Shown piece by piece: positions 21,827 through 40,458 of a stretch of DNA of 64,000 nt. Both the position numbers and the translations under genes were made by a program. The notes under the pieces are model-generated. The model ran no database searches, had not been told where the DNA came from, and saw only the letters and a list, made by a program, of their open reading frames with translations. The first letter of the stretch is position 1, and every line of letters starts with the position of its first letter. The stretch lies in the NCBI RefSeq assembly GCF_008629685.1, contig NZ_VWSF01000005.1, forward strand, positions 124,001 through 188,000. Direction: 5' to 3'. Source of the stretch: Adhaeribacter rhizoryzae (lineage in GTDB: Bacteria > Bacteroidota > Bacteroidia > Cytophagales > Hymenobacteraceae).

Positions 21827-23989
21827 ATGCATAAGTTTAAGCTGTTATTTAGTGTTTTTTTTATGCTGAAAGTCGCCCTGGTGGTGCAAGCCCAGGCGCT
21901 CACCTGGCAAGAAGTAGAACCAGGCGTTTGGAAGGGAATAGTTGGAAAGCCCGAAGCTTATGATTTACTCAAGGCGGCAGGCGCTACGCCGTATAAAGCA
22001 GGTTTAAATAATATCGGGAAGGCCGCATTTCCGCTGCCGCAAGCCCAAATATCGGCGGTGGTAAAAGATGGCAAAACGTACCTGCGATTTCCGCTGGTAG
22101 AAAAAGAGCAGCTTTACGGTTTTGGGTTAAATTTTCAGATGGTACACCAGCGGGGTAAAATATTGGAGTTACACGTAGACCATTACGGCGGCAAAGATAA
22201 CGGCCGCACCCACGCACCTACGCCCTTTTACGTTTCGTCGGAAGGTTACGGAATATTTGTAAATTCCGCGAGATATATTAAAGTGTGGGCCGGTACTGGC
22301 GTACGCCACGATAGTGAAAATTTTCCTGCGCCCAAAGACCGCAACACCGATAAAACCTGGGCGGCCCGTCCTTATTCCGATGCCGTAGAAATGCTGGTGC
22401 CGGCCGAAGGCGTTGAAATATATGTGTTTGCCGGTCCGCGCCCCTTAGATGCCGTAAAACGCTTTAATTTATTTAACGGCGGTGGCTACTTGCCGCCCCG
22501 CTGGGGACTTGGTTTTACCCAGCGGGTGATGACCAAATCTACTGCTGCCGATGTAGAAAAAGAAGTGCAGGACTTTGCTGAAAGAGGTTACCCCTTAGAT
22601 TTTATTGGCCTGGAGCCGGGCTGGCAGAGCAAAGCGTATCCGGGCACTTTTGCCTGGGACAAAACCCGTTTTCCGGACCCGGCCAAGTTTACCCAGGATA
22701 TGCTGAAAAAAGGAATTCGCCTGAACCTTTGGATTAACCCGTACGTGTCGCCGGACGCACCGTTTTACAAACAAATTAAACCTTACACCGCTTCGCATAC
22801 CGTTTGGCTAGGCTTGGTGCCGGATTTTACCATGCCCGAAGCACGGAATATTTTCTTTTCGCAACTAGAACAAGACCAGGTTGATATTGGGGTAAGCGGC
22901 TATAAAATTGATGAGGTAGATGGCTACGATTATTGGTTATGGCCCGATGTTGCTTTATTCCCGTCCGGTACCAGCGCCGAGCAAATACGCCAGACTTACG
23001 GTTTGCTAACCATGCGCTACAGCGCCGAAATGTTCCGGAAGCAGAACCGGCGAACCTTTGGTTTGGTGCGGGCCTCCAACGGCGGCGGCACTTCTTTTCC
23101 TTATGTAATTTACAACGATTATTATAACCACGAAGATTTTATTACGGCTTTGATTAACAGCGGCTTTGCCGGCGTGCTCTGGACGCCGGAAGTGCGGGCA
23201 TCTAAAACCGGCGAAGAATGGCTGCGCCGGTTCCAATCTAATGTATTTTCGCCGATGGCTATGATTAATGCCTGGGCCAGCGGCACCAAACCCTGGACTT
23301 ACCCCGAAGTAGAAAAACAGGTAAAAGAATATGCGCTGCTGCGCATGCGCCTCTTGCCTTACTGGTACACCGAATTTGCTAAATATCATTTTGAAGGCAC
23401 CCCGCCTTTCCGGGCCATGAACCTGGAAGACGGCTACCAACTACCAACCAAGAATGAAAATATTGCGGCCGTTACGAATACCAATCTCGAAGAAAATCCA
23501 TACCTGGAAGCCGTAGCCAAAGAAGTAAAAGACCAGTATATGGCCGGTGAATATTTGCTGGTAGCGCCTATGTTTGCCGGCCAGACTACCCGCAAAGTAA
23601 TATTGCCCAAAGGCCGCTGGTACGATTTTTATACCGGCGCATACGTAGGCGATGGCCAAATATTAACCGTAACGCCCGGCTTAGATAAAATGCCGGTGTA
23701 CGTAAAAGATGGCGGTATTATCCCAATGATGCCGCCTTTGCTGCAAGCGCCCAAAGCCAACCAAAAAGTAAACCTGGAAATCCGGCATTACGGCGAGAAA
23801 AACGGCATTTACCGCTTGTACGACGACGATGGAGAAACTTTCGACTATGAAAAGGGTGCGTATGCCTGGCGCGATATTAAAGTAGCCCGCCAGAAAAACG
23901 GACAATTTAAAGGTAATATTTCCAAAGCTCCCGCTGGTAAACCTAACACAATTGGGAAGGTAACCTGGAAGTTTATGACTAAACCATAA
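21827..23989 (+). CDS. GH31 family glycosidase (alpha-glucosidase/alpha-xylosidase type)
   Basis: A 720-residue secreted enzyme (signal peptide through VALVVQAQA). It has an N-terminal beta-sandwich, a TIM barrel with the predicted nucleophile D362 in SGYKIDEVDGYDYW, the GH31 segment FIGLEPGWQSK, and C-terminal beta domains ending in RLYDDDGETFDYEKG. GH31 enzymes cleave alpha-linked glucose, xylose or galactose with retention; the specificity here cannot be read. Downstream lie a hairpin, AACT repeats and an alginate-lyase-family gene that might share a substrate, though the 333-base gap argues against one transcript. Confidence 0.9.
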   Translation: MHKFKLLFSVFFMLKVALVVQAQALTWQEVEPGVWKGIVGKPEAYDLLKAAGATPYKAGLNNIGKAAFPLPQAQISAVVKDGKTYLRFPLVEKEQLYGFGLNFQMVHQRGKILELHVDHYGGKDNGRTHAPTPFYVSSEGYGIFVNSARYIKVWAGTGVRHDSENFPAPKDRNTDKTWAARPYSDAVEMLVPAEGVEIYVFAGPRPLDAVKRFNLFNGGGYLPPRWGLGFTQRVMTKSTAADVEKEVQDFAERGYPLDFIGLEPGWQSKAYPGTFAWDKTRFPDPAKFTQDMLKKGIRLNLWINPYVSPDAPFYKQIKPYTASHTVWLGLVPDFTMPEARNIFFSQLEQDQVDIGVSGYKIDEVDGYDYWLWPDVALFPSGTSAEQIRQTYGLLTMRYSAEMFRKQNRRTFGLVRASNGGGTSFPYVIYNDYYNHEDFITALINSGFAGVLWTPEVRASKTGEEWLRRFQSNVFSPMAMINAWASGTKPWTYPEVEKQVKEYALLRMRLLPYWYTEFAKYHFEGTPPFRAMNLEDGYQLPTKNENIAAVTNTNLEENPYLEAVAKEVKDQYMAGEYLLVAPMFAGQTTRKVILPKGRWYDFYTGAYVGDGQILTVTPGLDKMPVYVKDGGIIPMMPPLLQAPKANQKVNLEIRHYGEKNGIYRLYDDDGETFDYEKGAYAWRDIKVARQKNGQFKGNISKAPAGKPNTIGKVTWKFMTKP

Positions 23990-24322: not shown

Positions 24323-25510
24323 ATGACTAAATTGCTTAAACTATCTTTTATTTTCCTTTTTTCATTATTATGTCTGTCGGCTAGCGGGTTGGTACCGGTT
24401 AAGCCAGATAAAAACCTGCAAAAACAAGCCACTCAGGTTTTAAAATCACAAATATTAACCGAGGCCGCCTGGGCCTTGCAGCAGCAACCGGTTACCGTTA
24501 CGGCCAGTGTTTCGGCGCGCAGCGCCGGTACACCGCACGACTTTTTCTCGGAAGGCGATTATTGGTGGCCCGATCCGCAGAACTCCGAAGGACCTTACAT
24601 TCAGAAAGACGGCATGACGAACCCGGAGAATTTTGTGGCGCACCGCCTGGCCATGATTCGGTTCAGCCGCATTGTGGGTGCCCTGGCCTCAGCCTATAAA
24701 ATTACCAACGACGAGAAATACGTACGCCATGCCCTCGTACACCTGAAAGCCTGGTTTACCAATCCGGCAACGCTAATGAATCCTAATTTGCTGTATGCGC
24801 AGGCTATTAAAGGGCGCCACACGGGCCGCGGCATTGGCATTATCGATACCATTCACCTGATGGAAGTAGCCCAAGGCGTTATGGTTATGCAAAACGCCAA
24901 AGCATTTCCGGCGGCCGATTTGGCCGGTATTAAAAACTGGTTTGGGCAATATTTAACCTGGCTAACTACCCATAAATACGGCCAAGACGAGATGAACGCC
25001 AAAAATAACCACGGTACTTGCTGGGTAATGCAGGTAGCGGCTTTTGCCCGGCTTACGAATAACGAAGAAATGCTGAAGTTTTGCCGGGAACGGTACAAAA
25101 CAGTTTTGCTGGCCAACCAAATGGCGCCGGATGGTTCTTTTCCGTTGGAAATACAGCGCACCAAGCCTTACGGGTATTCGTTATTTAACCTCGATGCCAT
25201 GACCATGATTTGCCAGATTCTTTCCACGGAAAAAGATAATTTATGGTCTTACCAAACCCAGGATGGCCGCTCGATTAAGAAGGGAATAGCGTATTTGCAG
25301 CCGTTTGTAGCCGACAAAAGTAAGTGGCCTTTTAAGCAGGATGTGATGTACTGGGAAAACTGGCCCGTAGCGCAACCCTTTCTAATTTTTGGCGCTGTTC
25401 AGTTTTCAGAAAATACCTGGTTTAATACCTGGAAAAAACTCGACCACCACCCGCAGGTAGAAGAAGTGGTACGCAATTTACCAATCCGTAATCCGGTTAT
25501 TTGGTTTTAA
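24323..25510 (+). CDS. alginate lyase family protein
   Basis: A 395-residue secreted protein with a signal peptide ending near LCLSASG. An (alpha/alpha) toroid of the PL5/alginate-lyase type is indicated by FFSEGDYWWPDPQ, the helix with RHALVHLKAWF, and N228-N229-H230-G-T-C-W, the expected substrate-binding Asn-His pair. It may depolymerise uronate-rich polysaccharide, or act on other uronates since this Pfam family is broad. AATATT lies 4 bases before the ATG. The AACT tract upstream could affect its expression. Confidence 0.8.
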   Translation: MTKLLKLSFIFLFSLLCLSASGLVPVKPDKNLQKQATQVLKSQILTEAAWALQQQPVTVTASVSARSAGTPHDFFSEGDYWWPDPQNSEGPYIQKDGMTNPENFVAHRLAMIRFSRIVGALASAYKITNDEKYVRHALVHLKAWFTNPATLMNPNLLYAQAIKGRHTGRGIGIIDTIHLMEVAQGVMVMQNAKAFPAADLAGIKNWFGQYLTWLTTHKYGQDEMNAKNNHGTCWVMQVAAFARLTNNEEMLKFCRERYKTVLLANQMAPDGSFPLEIQRTKPYGYSLFNLDAMTMICQILSTEKDNLWSYQTQDGRSIKKGIAYLQPFVADKSKWPFKQDVMYWENWPVAQPFLIFGAVQFSENTWFNTWKKLDHHPQVEEVVRNLPIRNPVIWF

Positions 25511-27524: not shown

Positions 27525-28292
27525 TTACCTGGCAATAATTACTTTTATACCTCTTTCTTCGAGCATTTCAACGATGCTATCCGGTACGCCGCTATCCGTA
27601 ACTATATATTGCACCTGATCCAGGCTGCAAACCCGGCCCAGGCCGCGGCGGCCAAATTTAGAACTATCGGCGAGTACGGCAATTACCTGCGCCGATTCTA
27701 TCATGCGCTGGTTTAAGGTGGCTTCGGTTAAGTTGGTAATGGAAAGACCAAAATCGAGGTCGATGCCATCTACGCCCAAAAATAAAATGCCGCAGGAAAT
27801 GCCGCCTAAAATTTGCTCTGCGAAAGCACCGGCCACCGAAGACGAATTCGACCGGATTAAGCCACCCAGTTGCAATATTTCTACATTGGGGCGGTTGCAG
27901 AGTTCCAGGGTTACTTTAACGGCGGGGGTGATAACCGTCAGGTGTTTGGTTGGATGCAAGTGGCGGGCCAACTGAAAAACCGTAGTACCAGACCCAATAA
28001 TAATAGAGTCATTTTGCCCGATTAGTGATAAAGCGGCTTTCGCAATTTTTTGCTTTTCGTCGGCATTTATCAGTTCCTTTTCATCAATGGGTCTTTCGTT
28101 GGTGTAAGGGTTGTTAATAGAGCCGCCGCCCCGGGTTCGGAATAACAGGTTTTTATCTTCTAATAATTTCAGGTCTTTGCGAATAGTTACGCCCGAAACT
28201 TCCATTAAATCGCTGAGTTCCTGGATATTTACCCGCCCGTCTTCCTGTAATTTCTGCAAAATGAGCTGGTGTCTGTCGGTAATATTTTTCAT
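27525..28292 (-). CDS. DeoR/GlpR-family sugar-phosphate-responsive repressor
   Basis: A 255-residue regulator with an N-terminal DeoR helix-turn-helix (RHQLILQKLQEDGRVNIQEL, SGVTIRKDLKLLEDKNLLFR) and a C-terminal phosphosugar-binding sensor (IIIGSGTTVFQLARHL, LGVDGID). DeoR-type proteins usually repress a neighbouring sugar operon until a phosphorylated intermediate binds. It points away from the phosphodiesterase/MFS/kinase cluster that begins 520 bases away, the usual divergent arrangement, so that cluster is its likely target. It has a good promoter of its own. Confidence 0.9.
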   Translation of the reverse strand: MKNITDRHQLILQKLQEDGRVNIQELSDLMEVSGVTIRKDLKLLEDKNLLFRTRGGGSINNPYTNERPIDEKELINADEKQKIAKAALSLIGQNDSIIIGSGTTVFQLARHLHPTKHLTVITPAVKVTLELCNRPNVEILQLGGLIRSNSSSVAGAFAEQILGGISCGILFLGVDGIDLDFGLSITNLTEATLNQRMIESAQVIAVLADSSKFGRRGLGRVCSLDQVQYIVTDSGVPDSIVEMLEERGIKVIIAR

Positions 28293-28316
28293 AAAAGAGC
28301 GCGCTAAGGCTTAATA

Positions 28317-28347
28317 CAAACTTAACAAACCTTTAAAGGTATTTCAA
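28317..28347 (-). promoter_or_regulatory. Bacteroidetes-type promoter of the DeoR-family gene
   Basis: Minus strand: TTG (28347-28345), 20 bases, TAAGTTTG (28324-28317), an exact TAnnTTTG match. The start codon at 28292 is about 25 bases further on. Confidence 0.55.
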
Positions 28348-28813
28348 TTATTTTTACTATTAACCAAAAGTGTTAGAGGCAATTTAATCTGGTTCATTCA
28401 CAGCTTGAAAAAGCATGAATATTTTAAATATTAATACCGCGTGCCTTTCAGCAAAATTGTTTTTAACGCCTATTTAGCCCAGGAGCCGGATTAAAGTTAC
28501 TATAGCCAAAGTTGCAAATTTAGTTTCAAAGACCAGAATCGGAACTTTATTTTTGGCCCAAGTGCAAAAAAATAATAACATTTTTAAATAAAATTTAAGC
28601 ATTTTTAATTAAAATAAAGCAAATTATAACCAAATGGTTTTCTGATTAACTTAAAAAGAGTTAATTGCTTTTAAATAATTGGTGCAAAGCCCCGGTTGAT
28701 GCGGGTTTACCAGATACTCGCATGTTTGGGTGGCAGTAGAGGCTGGTTTACCGGCAATAATCGGGTGCTTTGTCCATTAAATATTGCTTGGTTCTATCCT
28801 GAAAAGTTATGCT
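28348..28813. other. divergent intergenic region, likely DeoR control region
   Basis: This AT-rich gap lies between the DeoR gene and the phosphodiesterase gene. The stretch 28560-28650 is extremely rich in A and T. It should contain operators and the cluster promoter, but I could not identify a convincing palindrome or a TAnnTTTG box on the plus strand. Confidence 0.4.
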
Positions 28814-30148
28814 ATGAAACACTTTTTATTAACGCTTTTAGCCATAATATCTTTTTCTGTAAGCAGTTGGGCGCAAGCAGCCAAACACGTTATTTTAATT
28901 ACCATCGACGGCTTCCGGCCCGATTTTTACCTGGATAAATCCTGGGGCGCCGTAAACCTGCAATACCTTATGGAAAACGGTGTGCACGCCAAAGGAGTAA
29001 ACGGTATTTTCCCGACGGTAACTTTCCCGTCGCATACCACCTTGGTAACCGGTGTGAAGGCGGCCAAACACGGAATTTACTACAACGATCCGTTTGAGCC
29101 AACCGGCCCCACCGGCCGCTGGTACTGGCATTACAATGCTATTAAGAGTCCTACCATTTATGATGCCGTGCGCCAGGCCGGGTTAAAATCAGCTTCGGTT
29201 TTGTGGCCGGTAACCGCCGGTGCTCCCATCGACTATAATATTCCGGACATCTGGAAAGTAGGTTCGCAGCCCGACAGACGCGAAGAAACGAGCAAACATG
29301 CCACGCCCGCAGGTTTATGGCAGGAAATTGAATTAAATGCCACCGGTAAATTAGAAGCCAATGATTTTAACATGGATAAAGATTACCTGGTTATGGATGA
29401 TAACGTGGCCCGCATGGCCGCTTATTTAATCCGGAAGTACCGGCCCAACTTTACCACCGTGCATTTACCGGTTGTAGACCACGCCGAAGGTCGTGACGGC
29501 GAACAAGTAAGAAGAGCCGTAACGGGTGCCGACCGGGCCATCCGGAACATTATAGAAGCAGTAGATAAAGCCGGTATTAAAAACCAAACGGCCATTATTG
29601 TTACCGGCGACCACGGCTTTGTAGATGGGCACACCGCTATTCAGCCCAATATTTGGCTGGCCCAGGCTGGCTTACTTAAAGACATTAAAAAAGACGAGTG
29701 GCAGGCGCAGTTTCAGCCGGCGGGTGGTTCGGCGTTTTTATATTTAAAAGATGCCAAAGATAAAAAAACGCTTAACCGGGTCCGGCAATTATTAGCGGCT
29801 TTACCCGAAAGTCAGCAGAAATTATTTAAAGTAATAGAAGGAGCCGAGTTAGCCAAAGCCAGCGCCGACCCCAATGTGGCCTTGGCTTTGGCCGCCGCGC
29901 CCGGTGTTACTTTTGGCCGGGCCAGCACCGGCGAAATATTCCGACCTAACTCCGGGGGCAACCACGGTTATTTTCCCAACTTCCCCAAAATCCAGACTGG
30001 TTTTATTGGGATGGGCGCCGGCTTTAAAAAAGGCGGATTTATCCAGGAAATGGAGATGATTGATGTGGCTCCGATAATAGCCCGCCTGCTCGGGTTGGAA
30101 TTTAAATCGGCCGACGGCATGACTTATCCGGGGCTATTGGTAAAATAA
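28814..30148 (+). CDS. secreted ENPP-type nucleotide pyrophosphatase/phosphodiesterase
   Basis: The ATG at 28814 (444 residues) is chosen over a TTG 30 bases upstream because it begins a perfect signal peptide (MKHFLLTLLAIISFSVSSWA). It is an alkaline-phosphatase-superfamily enzyme: metal ligand D32 (LITIDGFRPDF), the predicted nucleophile T70 in IFPTVTFPSHTTLVTG, then VDHAEG, VTGDHGFV and GGNHGYFP carrying the other metal ligands. It would hydrolyse phosphodiester or pyrophosphate bonds in the periplasm with two metal ions (usually zinc). It is first in the polyol/kinase cluster, separated by 273 bases from the transporter. Confidence 0.9.
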   Translation: MKHFLLTLLAIISFSVSSWAQAAKHVILITIDGFRPDFYLDKSWGAVNLQYLMENGVHAKGVNGIFPTVTFPSHTTLVTGVKAAKHGIYYNDPFEPTGPTGRWYWHYNAIKSPTIYDAVRQAGLKSASVLWPVTAGAPIDYNIPDIWKVGSQPDRREETSKHATPAGLWQEIELNATGKLEANDFNMDKDYLVMDDNVARMAAYLIRKYRPNFTTVHLPVVDHAEGRDGEQVRRAVTGADRAIRNIIEAVDKAGIKNQTAIIVTGDHGFVDGHTAIQPNIWLAQAGLLKDIKKDEWQAQFQPAGGSAFLYLKDAKDKKTLNRVRQLLAALPESQQKLFKVIEGAELAKASADPNVALALAAAPGVTFGRASTGEIFRPNSGGNHGYFPNFPKIQTGFIGMGAGFKKGGFIQEMEMIDVAPIIARLLGLEFKSADGMTYPGLLVK

Positions 30149-30421
30149 AGCTTTGCTTTTTTTAGTATATTATAGTTTAAAAGTGTTTAATTAGGTTTAA
30201 TTTTATTTGCATTTAAGATAATTATTAAACTTAATGATATGAATATAAACCTTTATACCTGATACCAGCCAACTTTTGTCTTCTTTAAAATCTAAAAAGA
30301 GATAAAAGAGAGCCTGACTGCCCTTGCAACCTTCGGGTTAAATAAAAAGAATACAATATTCCACAAAACAGCGCTTGAACCAAAAACCACCACCAATTTA
30401 AAATCATAACCAAAGACTTAC

Positions 30422-31723
30422 ATGCGTACAGAAACAAATTCGGGAGAATCCTTACTGGAAAAAGCCGGCATTCCGGGACAGCTGGGTTGGGGATATTTAG
30501 GTATTTTAATTTTTATGATGGGCGATGGCCTGGAACAAGGCTGGCTGAGCCCGTATTTATTAGAGCACGGCATGTCCATGCAGCAATCGGCTTCATTGTT
30601 TACCGTTTACGGCATTACCATCGCTATTTCTTCCTGGTTTTCGGGCGTACTGGCCGAAGGCTACGGGGCCAAGAAAACAATGGCCATGGGCTTACTCCTT
30701 TATATTATTGGTACCATTAGTTTTATTGGCTATGGTATGACCAACCTGAACTTCCCGATTATGCTCTTTACCTATGCTTTGCGGGGCTTTGGTTATCCAT
30801 TATTTGCCTATTCTTTCCTGGTTTGGATTACCTATCGCAGCCCGCAGCAAAAGCTGGGCCGGGCTGTGGGCTGGTTCTGGTTTGTGTTTACGGGCGGCTT
30901 AAACGTACTGGGCGCTTATTATTCCAGTTGGGCCATTCAGCATTTAGGCTATATCAATACCATGTGGAGCTCTATCTTCTGGGTTTTGGTGGGCGGCTTT
31001 TTTGCCTTGGTTTTAAACCGCGATAAATTTAAATCCAGCAATACCAATCCGGGAGCTAAAGCCCAGGAATTAATGAAAGGTTTAACCATTGTAAAAGAAG
31101 AACCCAAAGTACTGTTAGGCGGCCTGGTGCGCGTTATTAATACCACGGCCCAATTTGCTTTCCCGGTTTTTTTACCTACTTACATGGCGGCGCACGGCTT
31201 TTCTACTACCGAGTGGCTGCAAATCTGGGGTACTATTTTTACCGCCAATATTGCTTTTAACTTAATATTTGGTTTTGTCGGCGACCAGATGGGCTGGCGC
31301 AATACGGTGATGTGGTTTGGCGGCGTGGGTTGCGCTTTGTCTACGTTGTTATTTTTTTACACCCCGCAACTCGTCGGCGATAATTTCTGGATAGTATTAA
31401 TGGCCGGGGTTTTATGGGGTGCTTTGCTGGCGGGCTATGTACCGTTGTCGGCGCTGGTACCGTCTTTGGTTTCTAAAGACAAAGGCGCGGCCATGGCTAT
31501 CTTAAACCTGGGCGCTGGTTTGCCGGTTTTCCTGGGCCCGGCCATTGTGGGCGTATTTATTGGCTTAGTCGGCAACGAAGGCGTTGTCTGGATTTTAGCC
31601 GGCCTTTATTTCCTGAGTGCCATCCTCACCAAATTTATTACCCTACCCGATAATGCCAAAACCGCCCACCATGTAAAAGCCGACGTGGCAAGCCGGCCCG
31701 TAGGACAACTAAGTGCCCGCTAA
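30422..31723 (+). CDS. MFS transporter of the polyol permease family (RbtT/DalT/CsbX type)
   Basis: A 433-residue, 12-helix transporter. The N-terminal GYLGILIFMMGDGLEQGWLS and GWFWFVFTGGLNVLGAYYSS are characteristic, as I recall, of the family that includes Klebsiella ribitol (RbtT) and arabinitol (DalT) permeases and Bacillus CsbX/YoaB. It imports a small polyol or sugar acid by proton symport. Located directly before a YoaD-like dehydrogenase and a YoaC-like kinase, it reproduces the gene content of the Bacillus subtilis yoaB-yoaC-yoaD set. The substrate is not known. Confidence 0.85.
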   Translation: MRTETNSGESLLEKAGIPGQLGWGYLGILIFMMGDGLEQGWLSPYLLEHGMSMQQSASLFTVYGITIAISSWFSGVLAEGYGAKKTMAMGLLLYIIGTISFIGYGMTNLNFPIMLFTYALRGFGYPLFAYSFLVWITYRSPQQKLGRAVGWFWFVFTGGLNVLGAYYSSWAIQHLGYINTMWSSIFWVLVGGFFALVLNRDKFKSSNTNPGAKAQELMKGLTIVKEEPKVLLGGLVRVINTTAQFAFPVFLPTYMAAHGFSTTEWLQIWGTIFTANIAFNLIFGFVGDQMGWRNTVMWFGGVGCALSTLLFFYTPQLVGDNFWIVLMAGVLWGALLAGYVPLSALVPSLVSKDKGAAMAILNLGAGLPVFLGPAIVGVFIGLVGNEGVVWILAGLYFLSAILTKFITLPDNAKTAHHVKADVASRPVGQLSAR

Positions 31724-31804
31724 TATTCATAAATTTTTCTTGGGAAGTAAACCAGTAGCGTTTATGCTCTCCCAAGTGTTTTATCTCACCTAAACAAGAT
31801 TACC

Positions 31805-32806
31805 ATGAGAATTTTAATTACGGCGCCTTATCACGAGAAAGCGCAAGCGGTGTTGGCCCAAACGTTTGGCGACATTATTTACCGCCCCTGGAAACCCCAC
31901 GGACGGGCTTACCACGCCGAAGAATTAATTTCTTTGTTAAAAGAAACCCAGGCCAATGCTTTAATAACTGAACACGATAACGTTACGGCCGAAGTAATAG
32001 AAATATTCCCGGACTTAGAATTTATTGGCGTATGCCGCGGCACGCCCTCTAATGTAGCCATAGAAAAAGCAACCGAATGCGATATTCCGGTTTTCCATAC
32101 GCCCGCGCGTAATGCCCAGGCCGTGGCCGAAATGTTTGTGGCCAATGTAATTACGTTTTTACGCAACACCATTGCCGGTTGCGAGTGGCTGGCCGGCGAA
32201 AACTGGGAAGTCGGTGCGCATACCTCTTACCTGCAATTTAAAGGCAACGAACTGGCCGGCCGCACCATTGGTATGGTTGGGTTTGGTGCCATTGGGCAGC
32301 GCATTGCCGAAATGGTGAAGAATTTCCCTTGCCCTATTCAGTTTTACGACCCTTATGTAAAGCAGGCCGATCCAGCTTATAAGAAAACCACGCTCGAAGC
32401 TGTTTTCGAAACCAGCGATATAGTTTCCATTCATTTGCCGGTAACCGAACAAACCAAAGGAATGATTGATAAAACGTTGATTTCGCGGATGAAGAAAGAT
32501 GCCATTTTTGTAAATACGGCCCGGGCCGTGGTGGTAAACCGCGAAGATTTACTCGATGCCTTGGAAAATAACCAGATTCGGGGGGCTATCCTGGATGTAT
32601 TCGACCACGAACCACCCGATGCCACCGATTACAAAATTATTCACCGCCCTAATGTGTTGGCCACGCCGCATATTGCCGGGGCTACTTTTGAGGTAGAAGA
32701 CCACCATGCTTTTATCATGAACGATGCTTTAAAAAGCTGGTTCACCGACCAGAACCGAAATATTAAACAATTGGCTAACAAAGAAATATTAACGGTTAAA
32801 AGCTAA
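31805..32806 (+). CDS. D-isomer-specific 2-hydroxyacid dehydrogenase (YoaD-like)
   Basis: A 333-residue NAD-dependent dehydrogenase with nucleotide motif GMVGFGAIGQRIA (about 157-168) and catalytic R240 (NTARAVVV), E269 (DVFDHEP) and H289 (ATPHIAGA). It resembles phosphoglycerate dehydrogenase without an ACT domain. It oxidises a 2-hydroxy acid to the 2-keto acid. It sits 22 bases before an FGGY kinase, so a phosphorylated or free sugar acid is the likely substrate. An alternative is a biosynthetic SerA role, but the context argues against that. Confidence 0.9.
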   Translation: MRILITAPYHEKAQAVLAQTFGDIIYRPWKPHGRAYHAEELISLLKETQANALITEHDNVTAEVIEIFPDLEFIGVCRGTPSNVAIEKATECDIPVFHTPARNAQAVAEMFVANVITFLRNTIAGCEWLAGENWEVGAHTSYLQFKGNELAGRTIGMVGFGAIGQRIAEMVKNFPCPIQFYDPYVKQADPAYKKTTLEAVFETSDIVSIHLPVTEQTKGMIDKTLISRMKKDAIFVNTARAVVVNREDLLDALENNQIRGAILDVFDHEPPDATDYKIIHRPNVLATPHIAGATFEVEDHHAFIMNDALKSWFTDQNRNIKQLANKEILTVKS

Positions 32807-32828
32807 ATAGCTCTGTAAATAGTAAGAA

Positions 32829-34289
32829 ATGGCGGCACAAGAAGCATACATTATTATTGATATTGGCACCGGTAATGTGCGGGTGGCGGTAGCGGCTACC
32901 AGCGGCGAAATATTGAGCGTGGCGCGGGCAAACATGCCTTACCACAAAGATGAAAACTATCCCGAATCTATTTATTTCGACCCGAATGAGCTGTGGGGTA
33001 TTATTACCAACCTGGCCCAAACCGCTTTACAACAGGTGCCCGGCGTAGAAATAAAAGCCTTAACCGCTACCAGCCAGCGCGAAGGAATTGTTTTAATCGG
33101 CCAAAACGGCAACTCGCTGATTGGCTTACCCAATATTGACCACCGTGGCCGGGAGTGGGAGCGTATCATGACCGATAAAAGCAATATTTATACTTTAACC
33201 GGCCGCTATCCTACGTCCCTCTTTTCGGCTTTAAAACTGGTTGGTGTCCGGGAGCGGCGTCCCGAAATATGGGAGCAGTTTGCCACTTTTGTCAGTATCA
33301 GCGATTGGGCGCAATACCTGTTGAGCGGCGTGGCGCGGTATGAACATTCGCAGGCTTCCGAAACCTTGCTGTACGATGTAGCCCAAAAGCAATGGTCGCC
33401 GGAATTAGGTTTTATTTTTGATATTAACACGGCCAACCTACCGGAATTAGGAAGCGCCGGTACAATTCTGGGAGATATTTTACCCGAACAAGCCAGTGTT
33501 TTGAATATTTCGCCGGCGGCCGTGGTAATTATCGGCGGGGCCGATACCCAACTAGCCGTTTTGGGCACCCAACCCGAGCTCGACGATGTGGTAATCGTAT
33601 CGGGCACGACTACGCCTATTATCAAGTTAGCTAACCATTACGTCATTGATGCGCAGGAACGGTCGTGGACTAACCGCCACACCGATGCGGATAGCTTTAT
33701 TCTGGAAACCAACGCGGGCGTAACCGGCCTGAATTATCAGCGCCTGAAAGAAATATTTTACCCCAACGAAAGCTACGCGGTAATTGAACAGGAGCTTTCG
33801 GCGCTGACGCATCTGCAATGCGTGGCTTCGCTGGGTTCGCTGGTTGCCGACGAAAAAGCCCCGATTACCAAAGGTGGTTTTATTTTTCCGGCCCCGGTTT
33901 CGCATTTATTAACCCGCGCGCATTTTGTGTGGGCTACTTTGTGGGATATTGCCTGTAGCATCAAAGAAAATTACAGCACCCTCTGCGACATAGAAGCGCA
34001 CGAAAAAGATTATATATGGGCCTGTGGCGGTGGTTTTCAGAGCCCGATGCTGCGGCAATTTATTTCTAACCTGTTGCAGAAGAAAGTTAGGGTACGCGCT
34101 AATTACCAGCAATCGTCGGTAGTTGGGGGCGTTATAATTTGCAACGAAGCCTTGGGTGTAGCCGGGCAAGCCGAAGTGCCGGTAACCGTAGTAGAACCCC
34201 AGGTAAATGCCCGCGATCAGCAGCTGTACGCCGAATGGAAAAAGAACCGGGCCACTTTTAAACAAATGTGCAAGGAGGAAGTAGCATGA
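32829..34289 (+). CDS. FGGY-family carbohydrate kinase (YoaC-like)
   Basis: A 486-residue ASKHA-fold kinase. The first phosphate loop is IIDIGTGNVRVAVA, the second domain contains VIIGGADTQLAVLG, and the end has WACGGGFQSPMLRQF. The unusual first loop (GTGN rather than GTxS) recalls the YoaC/AI-2-kinase-like branch of FGGY kinases. It phosphorylates a small sugar, polyol or sugar acid with ATP in the cytoplasm. Its stop overlaps the start of the next kinase (ATGA), so the two are translationally coupled. Confidence 0.85.
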   Translation: MAAQEAYIIIDIGTGNVRVAVAATSGEILSVARANMPYHKDENYPESIYFDPNELWGIITNLAQTALQQVPGVEIKALTATSQREGIVLIGQNGNSLIGLPNIDHRGREWERIMTDKSNIYTLTGRYPTSLFSALKLVGVRERRPEIWEQFATFVSISDWAQYLLSGVARYEHSQASETLLYDVAQKQWSPELGFIFDINTANLPELGSAGTILGDILPEQASVLNISPAAVVIIGGADTQLAVLGTQPELDDVVIVSGTTTPIIKLANHYVIDAQERSWTNRHTDADSFILETNAGVTGLNYQRLKEIFYPNESYAVIEQELSALTHLQCVASLGSLVADEKAPITKGGFIFPAPVSHLLTRAHFVWATLWDIACSIKENYSTLCDIEAHEKDYIWACGGGFQSPMLRQFISNLLQKKVRVRANYQQSSVVGGVIICNEALGVAGQAEVPVTVVEPQVNARDQQLYAEWKKNRATFKQMCKEEVA

Positions 34290-35746
34290 GAGGACCTTAT
34301 TTTTTAGGCATCGACATCGGGACGCAAGGTGCCCGGGTGGTTTTGCTGGATGTAGCCGGCCACGTGGTGGGCAGCCAGGAAGAAGCTTTTGCCTTGAACG
34401 AGAAATCGCGCGAAGAACAATCGCCGCAGGAGTGGTGGGCCGCTACCCAACGGTCGGTAAAAGCATTATTAAAAGAAGCCGACGGGCAAATTACCTTAGC
34501 AAGTATTAAAGCTATTTCGGTTACATCTACCTCCGGTACCGTTATCCCGCTGGATGCGGCCCATTATCCGTTGCACCCGGCCATTATGTACTCCGATAAC
34601 CGCTCGGCGGAACAAGGACGGTTGTGTAAACAAGTTGCCCAGCAATATCATCCGCAGGGCTATACCGGCTTTAACGCTTCCAGCGGTTTATCCAAAATGG
34701 TGTGGTTTGGTCAGCAATATCCCGATAAAGCCCAACGGCTGCACAAATGGATTCATGCCACCGATTTTATTATTGGTAAACTAAGCGAAAACTGGGGCAT
34801 TACCGATTATACCAATGCGTTAAAATCGGGTTATGATGTAAACGAAGGCTACTGGCCCGCTTATATTTACGAACAACTGCCTTTAAAAAAAGAGTGGCTG
34901 CCCGAGGTGGTACCTTCGGGTACGCCCATTGGGCATTTAGCCCCGGCTTTGGCGGCAGGTTGGGGTTTAAGCCCGCAGGTACAAATTGTAGCCGGCATGA
35001 CCGACGGCTGCGCTTCGCAAATTGCGTCCGGAGCCGTTAACCTCGGCGATTGGAATACCACCATTGGAACAACCTTAGTCGTAAAAGGCGTAACCCGCAC
35101 CGAAATAAAAGACCCCGCAGACCGGCTCTACAGCCACCGTCACCCCAAAGGATTCTGGATGCCCGGTGGCGCCAGTAATACCGGCGCCGACTGGATAACC
35201 CGGGAATTTAAAGCTGATTTAGACGAACTGAACGAACAAGCAGCGCAACTGATGCCGTCGGGTTATATGGCTTACCCGTTGAGGCAGGAGGGAGAGCGCT
35301 TTCCGTTTATTTCGCCACAGGCCCGCGGTTTTGAGCCCACCGGTTTAACCCCGGCCCAACGTTTTGTGGCCAATCTGGAAGGAGTTGCTTACCTGGAGCG
35401 CTACGCCTTTGAGTTGATCGAGAGATTATCCGGCGAAAAAGTAAAAGCGGTGTATACGGCTGGTGGCGCCAGTAATTCCGATACCTGGCTTACCATCCGG
35501 AGCAATGTACTTAACCGGCCTATTTACAAAATGCGGCATGTAACCGGAGCCGTAGGCGCGGCCATTCTGGCGGCCTCCAAAACTCATTTTAATTCTATTA
35601 TAGAAGCTACCCAAGCCCTTACGCACATCGAGAAAGAATTTCAGCCGAACCCGGCCTTAAGCACCAGCTACGAAGCCGGATACCAGGAATTTATTCGGAC
35701 CTTGCAGGAAAAGGGCTATATTCAAAAAGACTATCAATATGCTTAA
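34286..35746 (+). CDS. second FGGY-family carbohydrate kinase (ribulokinase/xylulokinase-like)
   Basis: The start at 34286 gives an ATGA overlap with the upstream kinase and is preceded by AGGAGG (34273-34278), a rare strong Shine-Dalgarno in this window; an upstream TTG at 34268 is less likely. The 486 residues include GIDIGTQGARVVLLD (phosphate 1), VAGMTDGCASQIASG, and GGASNTGADWI and YTAGGASNSDTWL near the ATP site. It is clearly diverged from the first kinase, so the pair probably phosphorylates different substrates or forms a two-subunit system. It overlaps the next gene by 8 bases. Confidence 0.85.
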   Translation: MRGPYFLGIDIGTQGARVVLLDVAGHVVGSQEEAFALNEKSREEQSPQEWWAATQRSVKALLKEADGQITLASIKAISVTSTSGTVIPLDAAHYPLHPAIMYSDNRSAEQGRLCKQVAQQYHPQGYTGFNASSGLSKMVWFGQQYPDKAQRLHKWIHATDFIIGKLSENWGITDYTNALKSGYDVNEGYWPAYIYEQLPLKKEWLPEVVPSGTPIGHLAPALAAGWGLSPQVQIVAGMTDGCASQIASGAVNLGDWNTTIGTTLVVKGVTRTEIKDPADRLYSHRHPKGFWMPGGASNTGADWITREFKADLDELNEQAAQLMPSGYMAYPLRQEGERFPFISPQARGFEPTGLTPAQRFVANLEGVAYLERYAFELIERLSGEKVKAVYTAGGASNSDTWLTIRSNVLNRPIYKMRHVTGAVGAAILAASKTHFNSIIEATQALTHIEKEFQPNPALSTSYEAGYQEFIRTLQEKGYIQKDYQYA

Positions 35747-36338
35747 CATCTATTTACTGCGGCACGGGCAAACGGCCTGGAACGCCGATGGCAATCGCTA
35801 CTGCGGCCGCACCGATTTACCGTTAACCGAAACAGGTTTGCAGCAAGCGCAGTTAGCCGCCGAACAATTAAAAAATATTCCGTTCGATGCGGTTTATTCC
35901 TCGCCGCTGGAAAGGGCTTTTCGTACCGCGCAAATTGCGAGTGGCCGCCCCGATGTAAAAACCGACGACCGCTTAATAGAAGCTGATTTTGGCCAGTGGG
36001 AAAGCAAAGCCAAAGAGGTTTTTATTCCGGAAAACGAACAACTGTGGCAAAACTGGTGCGAAGACCCGGCCAATACCCGCGCGGGCGGAACCGGCGAATC
36101 GGCCCAGGAAATTGTAACCCGGGTAGATGATTTTTTCCAGGATTTGAGGCAGCAATACCCCATCGGCAATGTAATGGTAGTGGCGCACAACGGCGTAAAC
36201 CGTTTTTACCTCGCTTACAAGTTAGGCATGCCTCTGAAATATTACCGCCGGTTGGTGCTGGATAATTCTTCCATTACGCATTTCGGTCTGGATGAAACCG
36301 GTGAAATTTCGCTGATTCGCCTGAATAGTAAGTTGTAG
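35739..36338 (+). CDS. histidine phosphatase (phosphoglycerate-mutase-like)
   Basis: A 199-residue protein with the RHG motif (YLLRHGQTAWNADG, H9), SSPLERAFRTAQI, the glutamate in EADFGQWE and the second histidine in VVAHNGVNR. It removes or moves a phosphate through a phosphohistidine intermediate in the cytoplasm. The 8-base overlap with the upstream kinase makes it part of the same operon. A phosphatase coupled to two sugar kinases suggests dephosphorylation of a pathway intermediate rather than glycolysis. Confidence 0.9.
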   Translation: MLNIYLLRHGQTAWNADGNRYCGRTDLPLTETGLQQAQLAAEQLKNIPFDAVYSSPLERAFRTAQIASGRPDVKTDDRLIEADFGQWESKAKEVFIPENEQLWQNWCEDPANTRAGGTGESAQEIVTRVDDFFQDLRQQYPIGNVMVVAHNGVNRFYLAYKLGMPLKYYRRLVLDNSSITHFGLDETGEISLIRLNSKL

Positions 36339-36383
36339 TTAGCTGAGTCTATAATTTACATTTGAATCTGGAATGAATCAAAC

Positions 36384-36472
36384 GCTATGGTGCCATTGGT
36401 GGTGTTATCACCGCTAATTCTAAAGCTTCTGCCATGCTTCTTGCTGGTGAAAACACACAGCAAGGGCGGCGG
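36384..36472 (+). repeat. dispersed intergenic repeat, copy C
   Basis: Contains GGTGGTGTTATCACCGCTAA, TTCTAAAGCTTCTGCC and CTTGCTGGTG, shared with copy B (56992-57066, opposite strand) and copy A (26562-26626). It fills the gap between the histidine phosphatase and GDPD genes. A 54-codon frame from ATG 36387 to 36551 begins MVPLVVLSPLILKLLPCFLL and aligns with the frames of the other copies. Confidence 0.65.
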
Positions 36473-36551
36473 CTTTAGCTATTTCATAAAATACAAAATG
36501 GGCTCAAAACCTAGGGTTATTAAATTACCGTCACTACCAATTTTTCTGTAA
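36387..36551 (+). CDS. possible 54-residue peptide encoded by the dispersed repeat
   Basis: ATG 36387 to TAA 36549-36551. The start resembles the 36-residue frame in repeat copy B (MVLSLPILKLLADYLLV). A second frame through the same repeat is also largely open (GGVITANSKASAMLLAG), so coding status is doubtful; conservation may be at the DNA level only. Confidence 0.2.
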   Translation: MVPLVVLSPLILKLLPCFLLVKTHSKGGGFSYFIKYKMGSKPRVIKLPSLPIFL

Positions 36552-36580
36552 TCAATACCAACTATTTATTACCAGCTAAC

Positions 36581-37576
36581 ATGATTAAATATTTAAAACA
36601 GTTTACTCCAACCAAAGCCCGTCGTAATATCCGGGTGTTGGCACTGGCAGCTATTCTTAGTAGTTCGGCGGGCCAGTTGTGGGCGCAGAAAGGCAAAGAC
36701 CTCCATACGCTAAACCTTAAATCGCCGGCCGATTTACATGCTTTTTTCAAGTACACCGGCCAGGACGTGCCTTTAATTAGCGGGCACCGCGGCGGCATGA
36801 TCAAAGGTTTTCCGGAAAACTGCATTGCCACTTTCGAGAACACTCTGCGGCACACGCCGGCTTTTTTCGAGATTGACCCACGCCTGACGAAAGACAGCGT
36901 TATTGTGCTGATGCACGATGCCACTTTGGAACGGACCACTACCGGCAAGGGTAAAGTGTCGGATTATACCTGGGCCGAATTGCAAAAGCTGAAATTAAAA
37001 GATGTTGAGGGTAATATTACCGAGCACCGGATTCCTACTTTAGACGAGGTAATTAATTGGAGTAAAGGCAAAACCATTATCAACCTCGATAAAAAAGATG
37101 TGCCTTTGGCCATGACCGCCAAGAAGTTGCAAGAGCACCAGGCCGATACCTACGTGATGCTGACCGTACACAATGCGCAGCAAGCCAAATATTACTACGA
37201 CCAAAACAAGAACCGCATGTTTTCGGCTTTTGTCCGGACGAAAAAAGAATTTGAAGATTTCGAGAATTCCGGGGTGCCCTGGTCGCAAATAATGGCTTAC
37301 GTGGGCCCCACGAATAAACCGGAAAACAAGGAACTCTACGATTTATTGCATGCCCGGGGTGTAAAGTGCATGATTTCGGCGGCTCCTACTTACGACAAAT
37401 TAAAAGACCCGACCGAGCGCCGCAAAGCTTACCGCGAAACCTTCCAGGCTGGTGCCGATGTGCTGGAGTCGGATTTACCCATTGAGGCCGCCGCCGCCAT
37501 TCAGGACTTGATTCCGAAAAAAAGTCCGAAGCTTAAGTACTTTCAAAAGCCAGGCGGGAGCCAGGTAAAACGCTAA
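36581..37576 (+). CDS. secreted glycerophosphodiester phosphodiesterase family protein
   Basis: A 331-residue protein with a long signal (hydrophobic VLALAAILSSSAGQLWA after a basic start). The GDPD catalytic set is complete: H69-R70 (SGHRGG), E79, E97 and D99 (FFEIDPRL), H112 (VLMHDATLERTT). These enzymes cleave glycerophosphodiesters to glycerol 3-phosphate and an alcohol, with Ca or Mg, here in the periplasm. With the ENPP-type enzyme and the broken metallophosphoesterase it makes three secreted phosphoesterases around the kinase operon. Confidence 0.9.
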   Translation: MIKYLKQFTPTKARRNIRVLALAAILSSSAGQLWAQKGKDLHTLNLKSPADLHAFFKYTGQDVPLISGHRGGMIKGFPENCIATFENTLRHTPAFFEIDPRLTKDSVIVLMHDATLERTTTGKGKVSDYTWAELQKLKLKDVEGNITEHRIPTLDEVINWSKGKTIINLDKKDVPLAMTAKKLQEHQADTYVMLTVHNAQQAKYYYDQNKNRMFSAFVRTKKEFEDFENSGVPWSQIMAYVGPTNKPENKELYDLLHARGVKCMISAAPTYDKLKDPTERRKAYRETFQAGADVLESDLPIEAAAAIQDLIPKKSPKLKYFQKPGGSQVKR

Positions 37577-37580
37577 AGAA

Positions 37581-37635
37581 AAGGCCTAGGAGTAAAACTA
37601 TTAAATGAAGATAATACTTTTGCGCTCCAGGCCTT
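37581..37635. repeat. hairpin downstream of the GDPD gene
   Basis: AAGGCCTAGGAG (37581-37592) pairs with CTCCAGGCCTT (37625-37635) with one bulged base and a 32-base loop. There is no T-tract, so a terminator role is uncertain; AGGCCTAGGAG also occurs at 57072-57082 next to repeat copy B. Confidence 0.4.
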
Positions 37636-37711
37636 ACTACGCCGCCCGCCTGAGAACCTGAAGAGGTTAGTATAAATATTTTAGACCGTTTTTATTCAAC
37701 CTAAGAGCATA

Positions 37712-38785
37712 ATGAAATCAAAAATTCTTTTGAACCTGTTAATTGCGCTTCTTTTAACCGGGCAGGTATTTGCCCAAAAGAAATATGTTACGCCGGCCTT
37801 AAGCAATTCTAATTCCTGGTCGATGATTTTGGTGCCGGACCCGCAAACCTACGTAAAGTTTGAGCGGAACCAGCCGATACTGGAATTAATGACTTCCTGG
37901 ATTAAAGAAAATGTAGAGCCGCTGAATATTAAAATGGTGCTTTGTACCGGCGATTTGGTTGAACAAAACGAGATGATTAACCCGGATGGAAAAGCCGCCA
38001 ACCAGCCGAGTAAATTACAATGAGAATCTGTTGCCCGTTCATTTAGTAAGCTCGATGGTATTGTGCCTTTTATTACTGCCGCCGGTAACCACGATTACGG
38101 CTACTCCAATATCAGCTCGCGCAATACCAATTTTAATAAATATTTTCCGATCGATAAGAATTTTCAGACGCAGAAGCTGGTGCGCGAAGTAGCCCAAAAC
38201 GCCGAGAAAATACCAACTTTAGAGAATGCCGCGTTTGAATTTACCTCGCCGCACGGTCAGAAGTTCTTGTTCGTTACGCTGGAATTTGCGCCGCGCGATA
38301 CTACTTTGGCCTGGGCTAAAGGCGTCATCAACCAGGATAAATATAAACAGCATAAAGTAGTGGTACTGACCCACTCTTATATGAACGCTAAAAATGAGCA
38401 TATGGTAAAAGAAAACTATGCCATTGCCGAAGGAAATTACGGAGCAGGAATCTATCAGAAATTAGTGCAGCCGTCCAAGAATATTCAGTTGGTTTTTGCC
38501 GGCCACATTGGCGCACCGGATAAACCCAAAGAGCACGTGGCCTTCCGGACCGATACCAATGCGGGCGGCAAAAAGGTGCAGCAAATGGTGTTTAATGCGC
38601 AAGCTTTGGGCGGTGGTTGGTACGGCAACGGCGGCGATGGCTGGCTTCGCATTTTGGAGTTTCTGCCCGATGGCAAAACCGTAAAAGTTAAAACGTTCTC
38701 GCCTTTCTTCGCGATTTCGCCCACTACCCAGCAACACGCCTGGCGTACCGCTAATTACGATGAGTTTTCGTTTGTACTGGATTAA
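37712..38785 (+). pseudogene. secreted calcineurin-like metallophosphoesterase interrupted by an in-frame TGA
   Basis: A single reading frame of 357 sense codons is broken only by TGA at 38021-38023 (codon 104), in SKLQ-stop-ESVARSFSKLDG. Both sides are one protein: signal peptide (LLIALLLTGQVFAQ), VPDPQTY and CTGDLVEQN before the stop; AGNHDYG, LTHSYMN and FAGHIGA after it. These are the successive metal-binding motifs of the calcineurin-like fold, so the truncated product would be inactive. In homologues I expect a Trp here (QWE), so TGG to TGA is the simplest cause. No frameshift is needed. It could be a recent pseudogene or a sequencing error. Confidence 0.85.
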
Positions 38786-38889: not shown

Positions 38890-40458
38890 TTAGGAACTGC
38901 AGGAAAGCATGGAGCAACCTGCTTTTTGGCTGGCCCAATTTGGCCTTTTTAAGAAGAATTCATCCCATTTTTTAGAATAAGGATCTTTTATGGCTTCCTG
39001 TAGCTTGGCAAATAGGTTGGTTTCGCCATTCTCCAGATCTTCAATAGCCTGGTGCAATAAATAATTGCGTAAAATAAACCGTGGATTGGTTTTTTGCATC
39101 CGGGCAAGCTTTTCTGCCGGTGGAATTGTATTCTGTTTAATTCTTTGTTGGTATAATTTAAGCCAGCTTATAAAAGCTGCTGCGGCACTAGGTTCGGGTG
39201 TTTGGTAAAAGCTGCTTTTAAAATGGTTAAGGATTTCTTCCGTTATTTCTACCTGCTCGGGCAGTTCCATTAGTATTTGGTAGAAGATAGTCATATCGGG
39301 CTTTAAACGGGTGAGTACACTTTCCAGATCTTCCAACAGGGAAATATCTTCATTAGTTACTTGGTCCAGCCCTAATTTATTTCCCATCATAGCCTGGTAT
39401 TTTTTACTGTAAACAGCTTCATACGTTTTCAGGGTAGCTACCAGAGCATCAGTATCGGGTAATAAAGGAGCAAGCGCGCTGGCCAGGCAACCCAGGTTCC
39501 AGTAGGCAATGGAAGGTTGCTGACCAAAAGCATATCTTCGGCCGGGTAGATCGGTGGTGTTAGGCGTGAAATTAGGATCGTAATCGTCCAGGAAAGAGAA
39601 CGGGCCATAATCTATGGTTAATCCCAGAACAGACATATTATCGGTGTTCATTACGCCGTGCACAAATCCTACCCGTTGCCATTCAACCATTAAGCTGGCT
39701 GTTCTGGCCACCACCTCTTCAAACCAAGGCAATATGGCGTCTTTGCCCGGCAGGTGCGGATAATAACGCGAAATAGTCCAGTTGGTAAGATTTTTTAAAT
39801 TACCAATTTCTTGGCGGGCCGCAAGCATTTCAAAGTTTCCGAAGCGTAAAAAACTGGGGGCAACCCGCATCACAATTGCGCCCGGCTCAAAGGCGGGGTT
39901 GCCGTTGTAAAACATATCCCGCATAACCTGGTCGCCGGTAGTTACCAAACTCAATGCCCGGGTGGTTGGTACGCCCAAATAATGCATGGCTTCACTCATT
40001 AAATATTCCCTGACCGAAGAACGTAATACTGCCCGGCCATCTGCCCGCCGGGAGTAAGGCGTACGTCCGGCGCCTTTTAATTGCAGTTCCCAACTCTGGC
40101 CGGCATTGGTTAGCCATTCGCCTAAAGTTATAGCCCGGCCATCGCCTAACTGACCGGCCCACTGGCCAAACTGATGCCCGGCGTAGCAGGCTGCATAAGG
40201 TTGCATCGAATCGGTTACCAGATTACCGCCCAGTATGTCTGTATCTGATTGTTGCGTAGGTTTGCTGATGCCCAGTTCGGCGGCTAATTCCGCTGACCAA
40301 GCCAATAATTTGGGCGCTTTTACCGGCGTAGGATTAGCTTTACTATATAAAACACCCGGGGTTTGGCGCGGACGTAAATCGCCGGAATTATCGCCCGGGA
40401 AATTATTTACAAATTCGTTTTTATATTCTTTAGCGCTCAGGCTTTGCATATCTCTCAA
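38890..40458 (-). CDS. selO: protein adenylyltransferase SelO (YdiU/UPF0061 family)
   Basis: A 522-residue pseudokinase-fold protein. The family blocks are YAACYAGHQFGQWAGQLGDG, LQLKGAGRTPYSRRADGRAV, RSSVREYLMSEAMHYLGVPT and GFVHGVMNTDNMSVLGLTID. SelO proteins transfer AMP from ATP to Ser, Thr or Tyr of target proteins and respond to redox state. The C-terminus is Cys520-Ser-Ser, the bacterial Cys counterpart of the Sec-Ser-Ser tail of animal SelO. It is a single-gene unit. The start could also be the ATG three codons in. Confidence 0.95.
   Translation of the reverse strand: MRDMQSLSAKEYKNEFVNNFPGDNSGDLRPRQTPGVLYSKANPTPVKAPKLLAWSAELAAELGISKPTQQSDTDILGGNLVTDSMQPYAACYAGHQFGQWAGQLGDGRAITLGEWLTNAGQSWELQLKGAGRTPYSRRADGRAVLRSSVREYLMSEAMHYLGVPTTRALSLVTTGDQVMRDMFYNGNPAFEPGAIVMRVAPSFLRFGNFEMLAARQEIGNLKNLTNWTISRYYPHLPGKDAILPWFEEVVARTASLMVEWQRVGFVHGVMNTDNMSVLGLTIDYGPFSFLDDYDPNFTPNTTDLPGRRYAFGQQPSIAYWNLGCLASALAPLLPDTDALVATLKTYEAVYSKKYQAMMGNKLGLDQVTNEDISLLEDLESVLTRLKPDMTIFYQILMELPEQVEITEEILNHFKSSFYQTPEPSAAAAFISWLKLYQQRIKQNTIPPAEKLARMQKTNPRFILRNYLLHQAIEDLENGETNLFAKLQEAIKDPYSKKWDEFFLKRPNWASQKAGCSMLSCSS

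Follow-up and report, generated by a model that had tools for sequence, protein, structure and literature searches.

The closest described relatives of the locus reported here are the yoaD, yoaC and yoaB genes of Bacillus. The yoaDCB operon belongs to the S-box regulon (PMC2743287, in the part of that paper available to us), and yoaD and yoaB had already been named as S-box regulon genes in 2004 (accessible text of PMC517825). The sole functional proposal that our literature searches found is a conjecture on cysteine degradation, contained in the accessible part of PMC2885750. These searches returned no paper linking yoaC, yoaD and a kinase in Bacillus subtilis, and none pairing an FGGY kinase with a 2-hydroxyacid dehydrogenase. 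Here we describe a locus at 27525-38785 of a 64,000-nucleotide stretch of the Adhaeribacter rhizoryzae genome (contig NZ_VWSF01000005.1, positions 124,001 to 188,000; hereafter the window). The operon is real and conserved, has a catabolic look and enlarges the unexplained YoaDCB set. Its features, numbered from the first base of the window, are as follows.

27525-28292, minus strand: DeoR-family repressor (PF00455, 156.7 bits; PF08220, 52.9 bits)
28584-28597, plus strand: candidate operator-like site, one mismatch to TTAAACAAAATTWA
28784-30148, plus strand, likely start ATG at 28814: ENPP-type phosphodiesterase, predicted secreted (PF01663, 161.3 bits)
30422-31723, plus strand: major facilitator superfamily (MFS) permease of the YoaB/RbtT/DalT family (TIGR00897, 567.9 bits, cut-off 375)
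31805-32806, plus strand: HADH, a YoaD-type D-2-hydroxyacid dehydrogenase (PF02826, 178.7 bits)
32829-34289, plus strand: K1, a YoaC-type FGGY kinase of the LsrK clade (PF00370, 129.4 bits)
34268-35746, plus strand, likely start ATG at 34286: K2, a second FGGY kinase (PF00370, 155.1 bits; PF02782, 63.9 bits)
35739-36338, plus strand: HisP, histidine phosphatase superfamily (PF00300, 190.2 bits)
36581-37576, plus strand: glycerophosphodiester phosphodiesterase (GDPD), predicted secreted, a core member (PF03009, 79.5 bits, gathering score 23.6)
37712-38023 and 38063-38785, plus strand: metallophosphoesterase interrupted into two open reading frames (second frame PF00149, 25.5 bits, cut-off 21.5)

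The genes and families named in an initial annotation of this locus are borne out by open reading frames (ORFs) at these positions and by agreeing Pfam and NCBIfam matches. The junctions and the break that it described are likewise all in the sequence: the K2 ATG at 34286 overlaps the K1 stop (ATGA), the K2 and HisP genes overlap by 8 bases, and the metallophosphoesterase is broken. The first of its two ORFs has no Pfam match, and relatives are intact at 357 amino acids in Adhaeribacter aerolatus (locus L046) and in L047. Secretion was called by inspecting N-termini by eye in the translations and the DNA. The MFS protein passes the polyol-permease family model RbtT/DalT/CsbX (TIGR00897), K1 and K2 are 24% identical across K1 residues 7-300, and the nearest models for HisP (CobC, RNase H/acid phosphatase and PspA) each scored below their cut-offs.

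The screen of named genomes used a K1 alignment built from a single family and retained the best 80 of its 88 relatives, so the set is biased. A K1 ORF was called in 79 of the 80 loci, 78 from Bacteroidota and one from Bacillus sp. J37. Being drawn via K1, these loci are silent on partners that occur without K1, and some of them end at contig ends. Same-strand runs around K1 contained K2 in 77/79 loci, HADH in 75/79, HisP in 74/79, MFS in 69/79 and GDPD in 60/79, whilst a DeoR relative was found anywhere in the locus in 53/79. Median intergenic distances were 6 bp for HADH-K1, -1 bp for K1-K2, -8 bp for K2-HisP and 6 bp for HisP-GDPD. The layout is beyond chance, since identical gene order recurs across tens of genomes, and MFS-HADH-K1-K2-HisP-GDPD is a real conserved core, a conservation elsewhere on which the initial annotation had staked its reading. 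That annotation had also placed three secreted enzymes in the pathway. This is plausible for GDPD, but ENPP (3/79) and the metallophosphoesterase (13/79) are accessories, not core. K1 is uncommon yet spread out in Bacteroidota: a K1 match of at least 62% identity occurred in 8 of 150 genomes of the family (own genome counted), HADH and K2 adjoining K1 in all eight, and a 345-genome sample of Bacteroidota yielded K1 at E 1e-70 in three, again counting the genome of the window.

The likeness to YoaB, YoaC and YoaD that had been proposed for three of these proteins is upheld by Bacillus sp. J37 (L118). Its MFS, HADH and K1 proteins are 58%, 57% and 49% identical to those of the window, as measured against the J37 copies and not the genes of B. 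subtilis 168 itself, and are encoded by adjacent genes in the order HADH-K1-MFS, that is yoaD-yoaC-yoaB. K2, HisP and GDPD, all present in the window operon, are missing from the J37 locus. The latter has an S-adenosylmethionine (SAM) riboswitch upstream (86.3 bits), whereas no Rfam match to one was found at the gathering threshold anywhere in the window. A K1 relative at E 1e-60 was found in 17 of 80 genomes of the J37 family, and in all 17 loci a SAM riboswitch lies approximately 1.1-1.2 kb upstream of K1 (neighbouring genes were listed for L118 alone). One Bacillus-family locus, L159, has a second SAM riboswitch downstream of K1 on the K1 strand (1217-1314). Four other Bacilli loci are of two kinds: L187 and L189 contain HADH, K1, MFS and a SAM riboswitch, whilst L188 and L190 are without the riboswitch and carry K2 and HisP. 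In L188 a SorC-type regulator accompanies HADH, K1, K2 and HisP, the MFS being divergent and read as two ORFs; in L190 a SorC-type regulator accompanies MFS, HADH, K1, a class II aldolase, K2 and HisP.

Our preferred reading, to which we give roughly even confidence, is that the genes form a scavenging operon linked to DeoR. A small polyhydroxy compound would be released by secreted phosphodiesterases (GDPD most commonly, with ENPP and the metallophosphoesterase in some species) and taken up through the YoaB-type MFS, K1 would phosphorylate it and HADH would then oxidise or reduce the 2-position of the phosphorylated compound. In Bacteroidota, HisP and K2 would carry out the remaining steps to a central sugar phosphate. 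The data show the gene content, its conservation, the match to yoaDCB, the clade of K1 with LsrK and the pairing of HADH with K1; every reaction, the order of reactions and the phosphodiester source are what we infer. Phosphodiester cleavage is a plausible part given how often a predicted-secreted GDPD gene lies in the same-strand runs. As substrate, a ketose, polyol or sugar acid of C4-C6 size is probable.

A route close to the initial annotation would begin with a ribitol- or arabitol-like polyol from teichoic-acid-like phosphodiesters, which oxidation and phosphorylation would turn into a pentulose phosphate. This agrees with the RbtT/DalT family of the MFS, with the frequency of GDPD and with the nearest relatives of K2. 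In a 38-row FGGY tree K2 forms its own clade. The nearest solved sequences to it are AtXK-1/SePSK (5htr, E 4.5e-68; 5htn, 5.2e-61), named by their depositors as a putative xylulose kinase and a probable sugar kinase, and which we take to be D-ribulokinases. We nevertheless regard such a pentitol route as unlikely: none of the usual polyol dehydrogenase families is represented among the scanned locus ORFs, and HADH keeps residues that presumably bind a 2-keto or 2-hydroxy acid, which would be unusual for a polyol dehydrogenase. The position of K2 also bears on a result that would speak against the initial annotation by its own account, namely kinases that prove to be ordinary xylulo- or ribulokinases of a pentose pathway. 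One of the two kinases, K2, may be near an ordinary ribulokinase, which counts against the annotation, whilst K1 falls outside both groups in trees of 31 and 38 rows. Against the xylulokinase model XylB (TIGR01312), K1 and K2 scored 125.5 and 222 bits, both under the cut-off of 380.25. We rejected K1 as the xylulokinase or ribulokinase of an ordinary pentose pathway, on its placement in the trees.

By profile, the nearest solved sequence to K1 is LsrK (5ya0, E 5.3e-41), followed by XylB (1.5e-27). K1, its distant sisters from Bacillota and Escherichia coli LsrK form a single clade (99/97 in the 31-row tree, 98/95 in the 38-row tree), although the trees carry warnings for long branches and letter composition, which concern Enterococcus raffinosus K1 among others. 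That sequence groups with K1 proper and not with the distant sisters. A structure model of K1 (pLDDT 89.7, pTM 0.90) is matched about equally by several FGGY kinases; the fold comparison does not discriminate, since Foldseek places xylulose kinase 3ll3 at the top and LsrK chains second and third. Ten putative site residues for 4,5-dihydroxy-2,3-pentanedione (DPD) in LsrK were taken from the available part of PMC8016206. The window K1 keeps five of these residues, E. coli GlpK four, YgcE four and XylB two. At these positions LsrK reads TSMRDVFQEI, whilst 10 of 18 K1-type kinases read exactly TSQRDTTPEN, the other eight differ at 1-3 places, and R, D, P, E and N are invariant across all 18. Since the K1-type kinases agree closely at this site and carry more polar residues where they depart from LsrK, they may share a type of substrate with greater polarity than DPD.

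K1 was also tried as a true autoinducer-2 (AI-2) kinase and rejected: it scored 138.1 bits against the LsrK model PRK10939 (cut-off 528), keeps only half of the site residues and, as the following counts show, is without LuxS in the Bacteroidota genomes checked and without most Lsr partners in the loci searched. LuxS is absent from 9/9 Bacteroidota genomes carrying the core and present in 3/3 Bacillus-family genomes checked. No relative of MtnK, MtnA, FucA, LsrB, LsrF, LsrG or LsrR was found in the window or in the 80 named loci at E 1e-8; at the same threshold LsrA was the sole Lsr match, as an ABC ATPase, in eight named loci.

A closer inspection of 15 distant Bacillota loci (L148-L156, L198-L202 and E. 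raffinosus L135) revealed HADH together with a K1-type kinase in 12, of which 11 also have a class II aldolase. L150 shows no aldolase ahead of its contig end, and the lower-similarity FGGY loci L200-L202 contain neither HADH nor aldolase. For the aldolases of L135, L149, L152 and L190 the highest scores came from models of fuculose-phosphate or ribulose-1-phosphate aldolase, with 3-oxo-tetronate-4-phosphate decarboxylase below them; only L135 passed a model cut-off (fuculose-phosphate aldolase, 276.2 bits, cut-off 264). Some Bacillota relatives would, instead of or in addition to HisP and K2, use a class II aldolase that scores highest as a sugar-1-phosphate aldolase. Genes for an aldehyde oxidoreductase, a sugar/nucleoside-type ABC transporter and isomerase-like and deaminase-like proteins lie near some of these loci. 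The E. raffinosus locus has the order HADH-K1-aldolase-alcohol dehydrogenase-MtnK-MtnA, in which MtnK reaches 369.8 bits (cut-off 275), and MtnA 334 bits with PRK05720 (cut-off 271) yet only 207.5 with TIGR00512 (below 279). This megaplasmid cluster (L135, 7620-15687) unites two salvage modules in an unusual way. The genome of the window contains two class II aldolase-family (PF00596) genes; neither looks FucA-like, as one lies close to an AraB-like kinase gene and the other is a 721-amino-acid frame. An obligatory class II aldolase was accordingly discarded, the window genome lacking a FucA-like one and genomes G054, G072 and G151 having no PF00596 gene at all.

These contexts bring in a second alternative, that K1 and HADH handle a deoxy-pentose derivative arising from SAM (5-deoxyribulose, its 5-methylthio analogue or an AI-2-like dicarbonyl). 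After phosphorylation by K1 and a further conversion, a class II aldolase would release dihydroxyacetone phosphate (DHAP) and an aldehyde, and the Bacteroidota would have adapted the set to a scavenged relative. LsrK inside the K1 clade, the riboswitch in all 17 Bacillus-family loci and in L187 and L189, and the methylthioribose-type genes beside HADH-K1 in E. raffinosus all speak for it. So does an amidohydrolase gene near the L154 pair, of the 5'-deoxyadenosine/methylthioadenosine-deaminase kind though below model cut-offs, with a 31% relative in L198. We still consider this model rather improbable. The core-bearing Bacteroidota lack LuxS, the Mtn, FucA and Lsr partners searched for above are missing from the window and named loci, K1 retains barely more DPD-site residues than GlpK with the replaced ones being more polar, and L188 and L190, which carry K2 and HisP, have no riboswitch. 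Moreover, it leaves the secreted phosphodiesterases unexplained.

In a tree with E. coli SerA, PdxB and GhrB and three paralogues as the other members, the 14 rows of HADH and its distant sisters fall into a clade of their own (96/94). R240, E269 and H289, which we take to be catalytic and to bind the 2-keto or 2-hydroxy acid, are invariant in 15 aligned sequences. Two arginines (in CRG-like and P[AG]RNA stretches) occur in 14/14 members of the clade and in 0/6 of the other 2-hydroxyacid dehydrogenases aligned. These extra arginines would suit a phosphorylated substrate, which suggests that K1 acts before HADH. An AlphaFold2 model (pLDDT 85.8, pTM 0.69) matches phosphoglycerate dehydrogenases and glyoxylate reductases. 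A third alternative is a sugar-acid pathway: the terminal hydroxyl of a tetronate or aldonate would be the site of phosphorylation by K1, and HADH would work as a phospho-hydroxyacid dehydrogenase in the manner of PdxB, ahead of decarboxylation or cleavage. In its favour are the retained acid-binding residues, phosphoglycerate dehydrogenases and glyoxylate reductases as the nearest solved relatives of HADH, an NAxAVxE stretch common to HADH and E. coli PdxB, and a TIM-barrel isomerase-like gene added in L152, L153 and L199, which would give dehydrogenase, isomerase, kinase and aldolase-family steps. However, HADH as PdxB itself was ruled out, scoring 104 bits against NF001309 (cut-off 434), with PdxB, on a long branch, outside the HADH clade. 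The polyol-permease family of the MFS and the preference of the aldolases for fuculose-phosphate or ribulose-1-phosphate models, if with a single cut-off passed, also argue against a sugar acid, and the SAM link would go unexplained. We hold this pathway, too, to be rather improbable. The substrate may be a SAM-derived deoxy-sugar, a sugar acid or a pentitol.

The DeoR gene and the MFS gene flank gaps that may hold an operator. With up to two mismatches, TTAAACAAAATTWA was found in 26 of the 28 DeoR-MFS gaps of named loci and in the two gaps of the window, compared with 4/118 control gaps from the same loci, although this comparison is partly circular because TTAAACAAAATTWA was derived from the same DeoR-MFS gaps. 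The site at 28584-28597 is a weak, possible operator.

Several observations weigh against the scavenging operon that we prefer. Across the window TTAAACAAAATTWA had 11 matches against 9.2 expected, which is chance level. GDPD is missing from 19/79 same-strand runs (some of them cut by contig ends) and from all five Bacilli loci with genes listed (L118, L187-L190), so cleavage of phosphodiesters may have been added in some lineages only. The locus of genome G072 (L045) has no MFS, no FucA-like aldolase is identifiable in the genome of the window, and a pathway with a kinase, a phosphatase and a second kinase has no precedent among the systems tested. Finally, the SAM riboswitch of Bacillus fits no obvious place in phosphodiester scavenging and is absent from the window.

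A broader possibility, which we put forward tentatively and with some doubt, is that HADH-K1 is an ancient two-enzyme step shared by YoaD-YoaC, the Bacteroidota and other Bacillota, which would phosphorylate and redox-convert one unnamed sugar akin to the AI-2 and 5-deoxypentose compounds derived from SAM. The Bacteroidota would harvest it via GDPD and finish with HisP and K2, whilst other lineages would cleave it by aldolase. If true, this step would be a new catabolic pathway and would explain the SAM-riboswitch-controlled yoaDCB operon. Three findings go beyond the initial annotation: K1 falls in the LsrK clade, relatives occur in the company of SAM riboswitches and methylthioribose genes, and Bacillota versions have a class II aldolase. 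The GDPD, K2 and HisP genes added in Bacteroidota (and the aldolase in Bacillota relatives) narrow the candidates for yoaDCB, and since the Bacteroidota set has the appearance of a complete catabolic operon, growth and induction tests become possible there. Moreover, the AI-2 kinase clade is tied to a wider kinase group whose Bacteroidota members have no LuxS in the genomes checked.

Further neighbours were sought as clusters of unassigned ORFs anywhere in the named loci, with Pfam families taken from cluster representatives. SusC-like proteins were found in 30 loci and SusD-like in 27 (large outer-membrane-type proteins, judged by sequence start only); other frequent neighbours were a PF12831 FAD oxidoreductase (25 loci), a PF03372 protein (25) and a second MFS (20). 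In Rufibacter immobilis (L048, 15155-19588) GDPD is followed by an extra PF01663 phosphodiesterase and by apparently split transketolase genes, the latter also judged by sequence start only. A myo-inositol-1-phosphate synthase gene (PF01658) adjoins the DeoR gene in Dyadobacter (L086, 5302-6528), and its cluster occurs in eight loci. In the window itself, a glycoside hydrolase family 31 gene (21827-23989, PF01055) and an alginate-lyase-family gene (24323-25510, PF05426, 323 bits) lie upstream of the locus, and a SelO protein adenylyltransferase gene (38890-40458, PF02696) lies immediately downstream on the opposite strand.

Compared with other known systems, the locus stands nearest to the AI-2 kinase in K1 alone, by clade and by profile, and departs from it in substrate-site residues and partner genes. 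The DHAP shunt for 5-deoxyribose salvage (as described in the available part of PMC6079011) is matched by the aldolase, MtnK and MtnA genes that adjoin HADH-K1 in E. raffinosus. None of these three has a relative in the window at E 1e-8. Ribitol and D-arabitol operons have a permease family in common with the window, and K2 with its AtXK-1/SePSK affinity is a further resemblance. In the window a 2-hydroxyacid dehydrogenase replaces their polyol dehydrogenase, and an LsrK-clade kinase, a phosphatase and a predicted-secreted GDPD are additional. The 2-ketogluconate kgu operon, likened here by description only, differs in its kinase family and extra genes and shares with the window the logic of a transporter, a kinase and a 2-hydroxyacid-type reductase.

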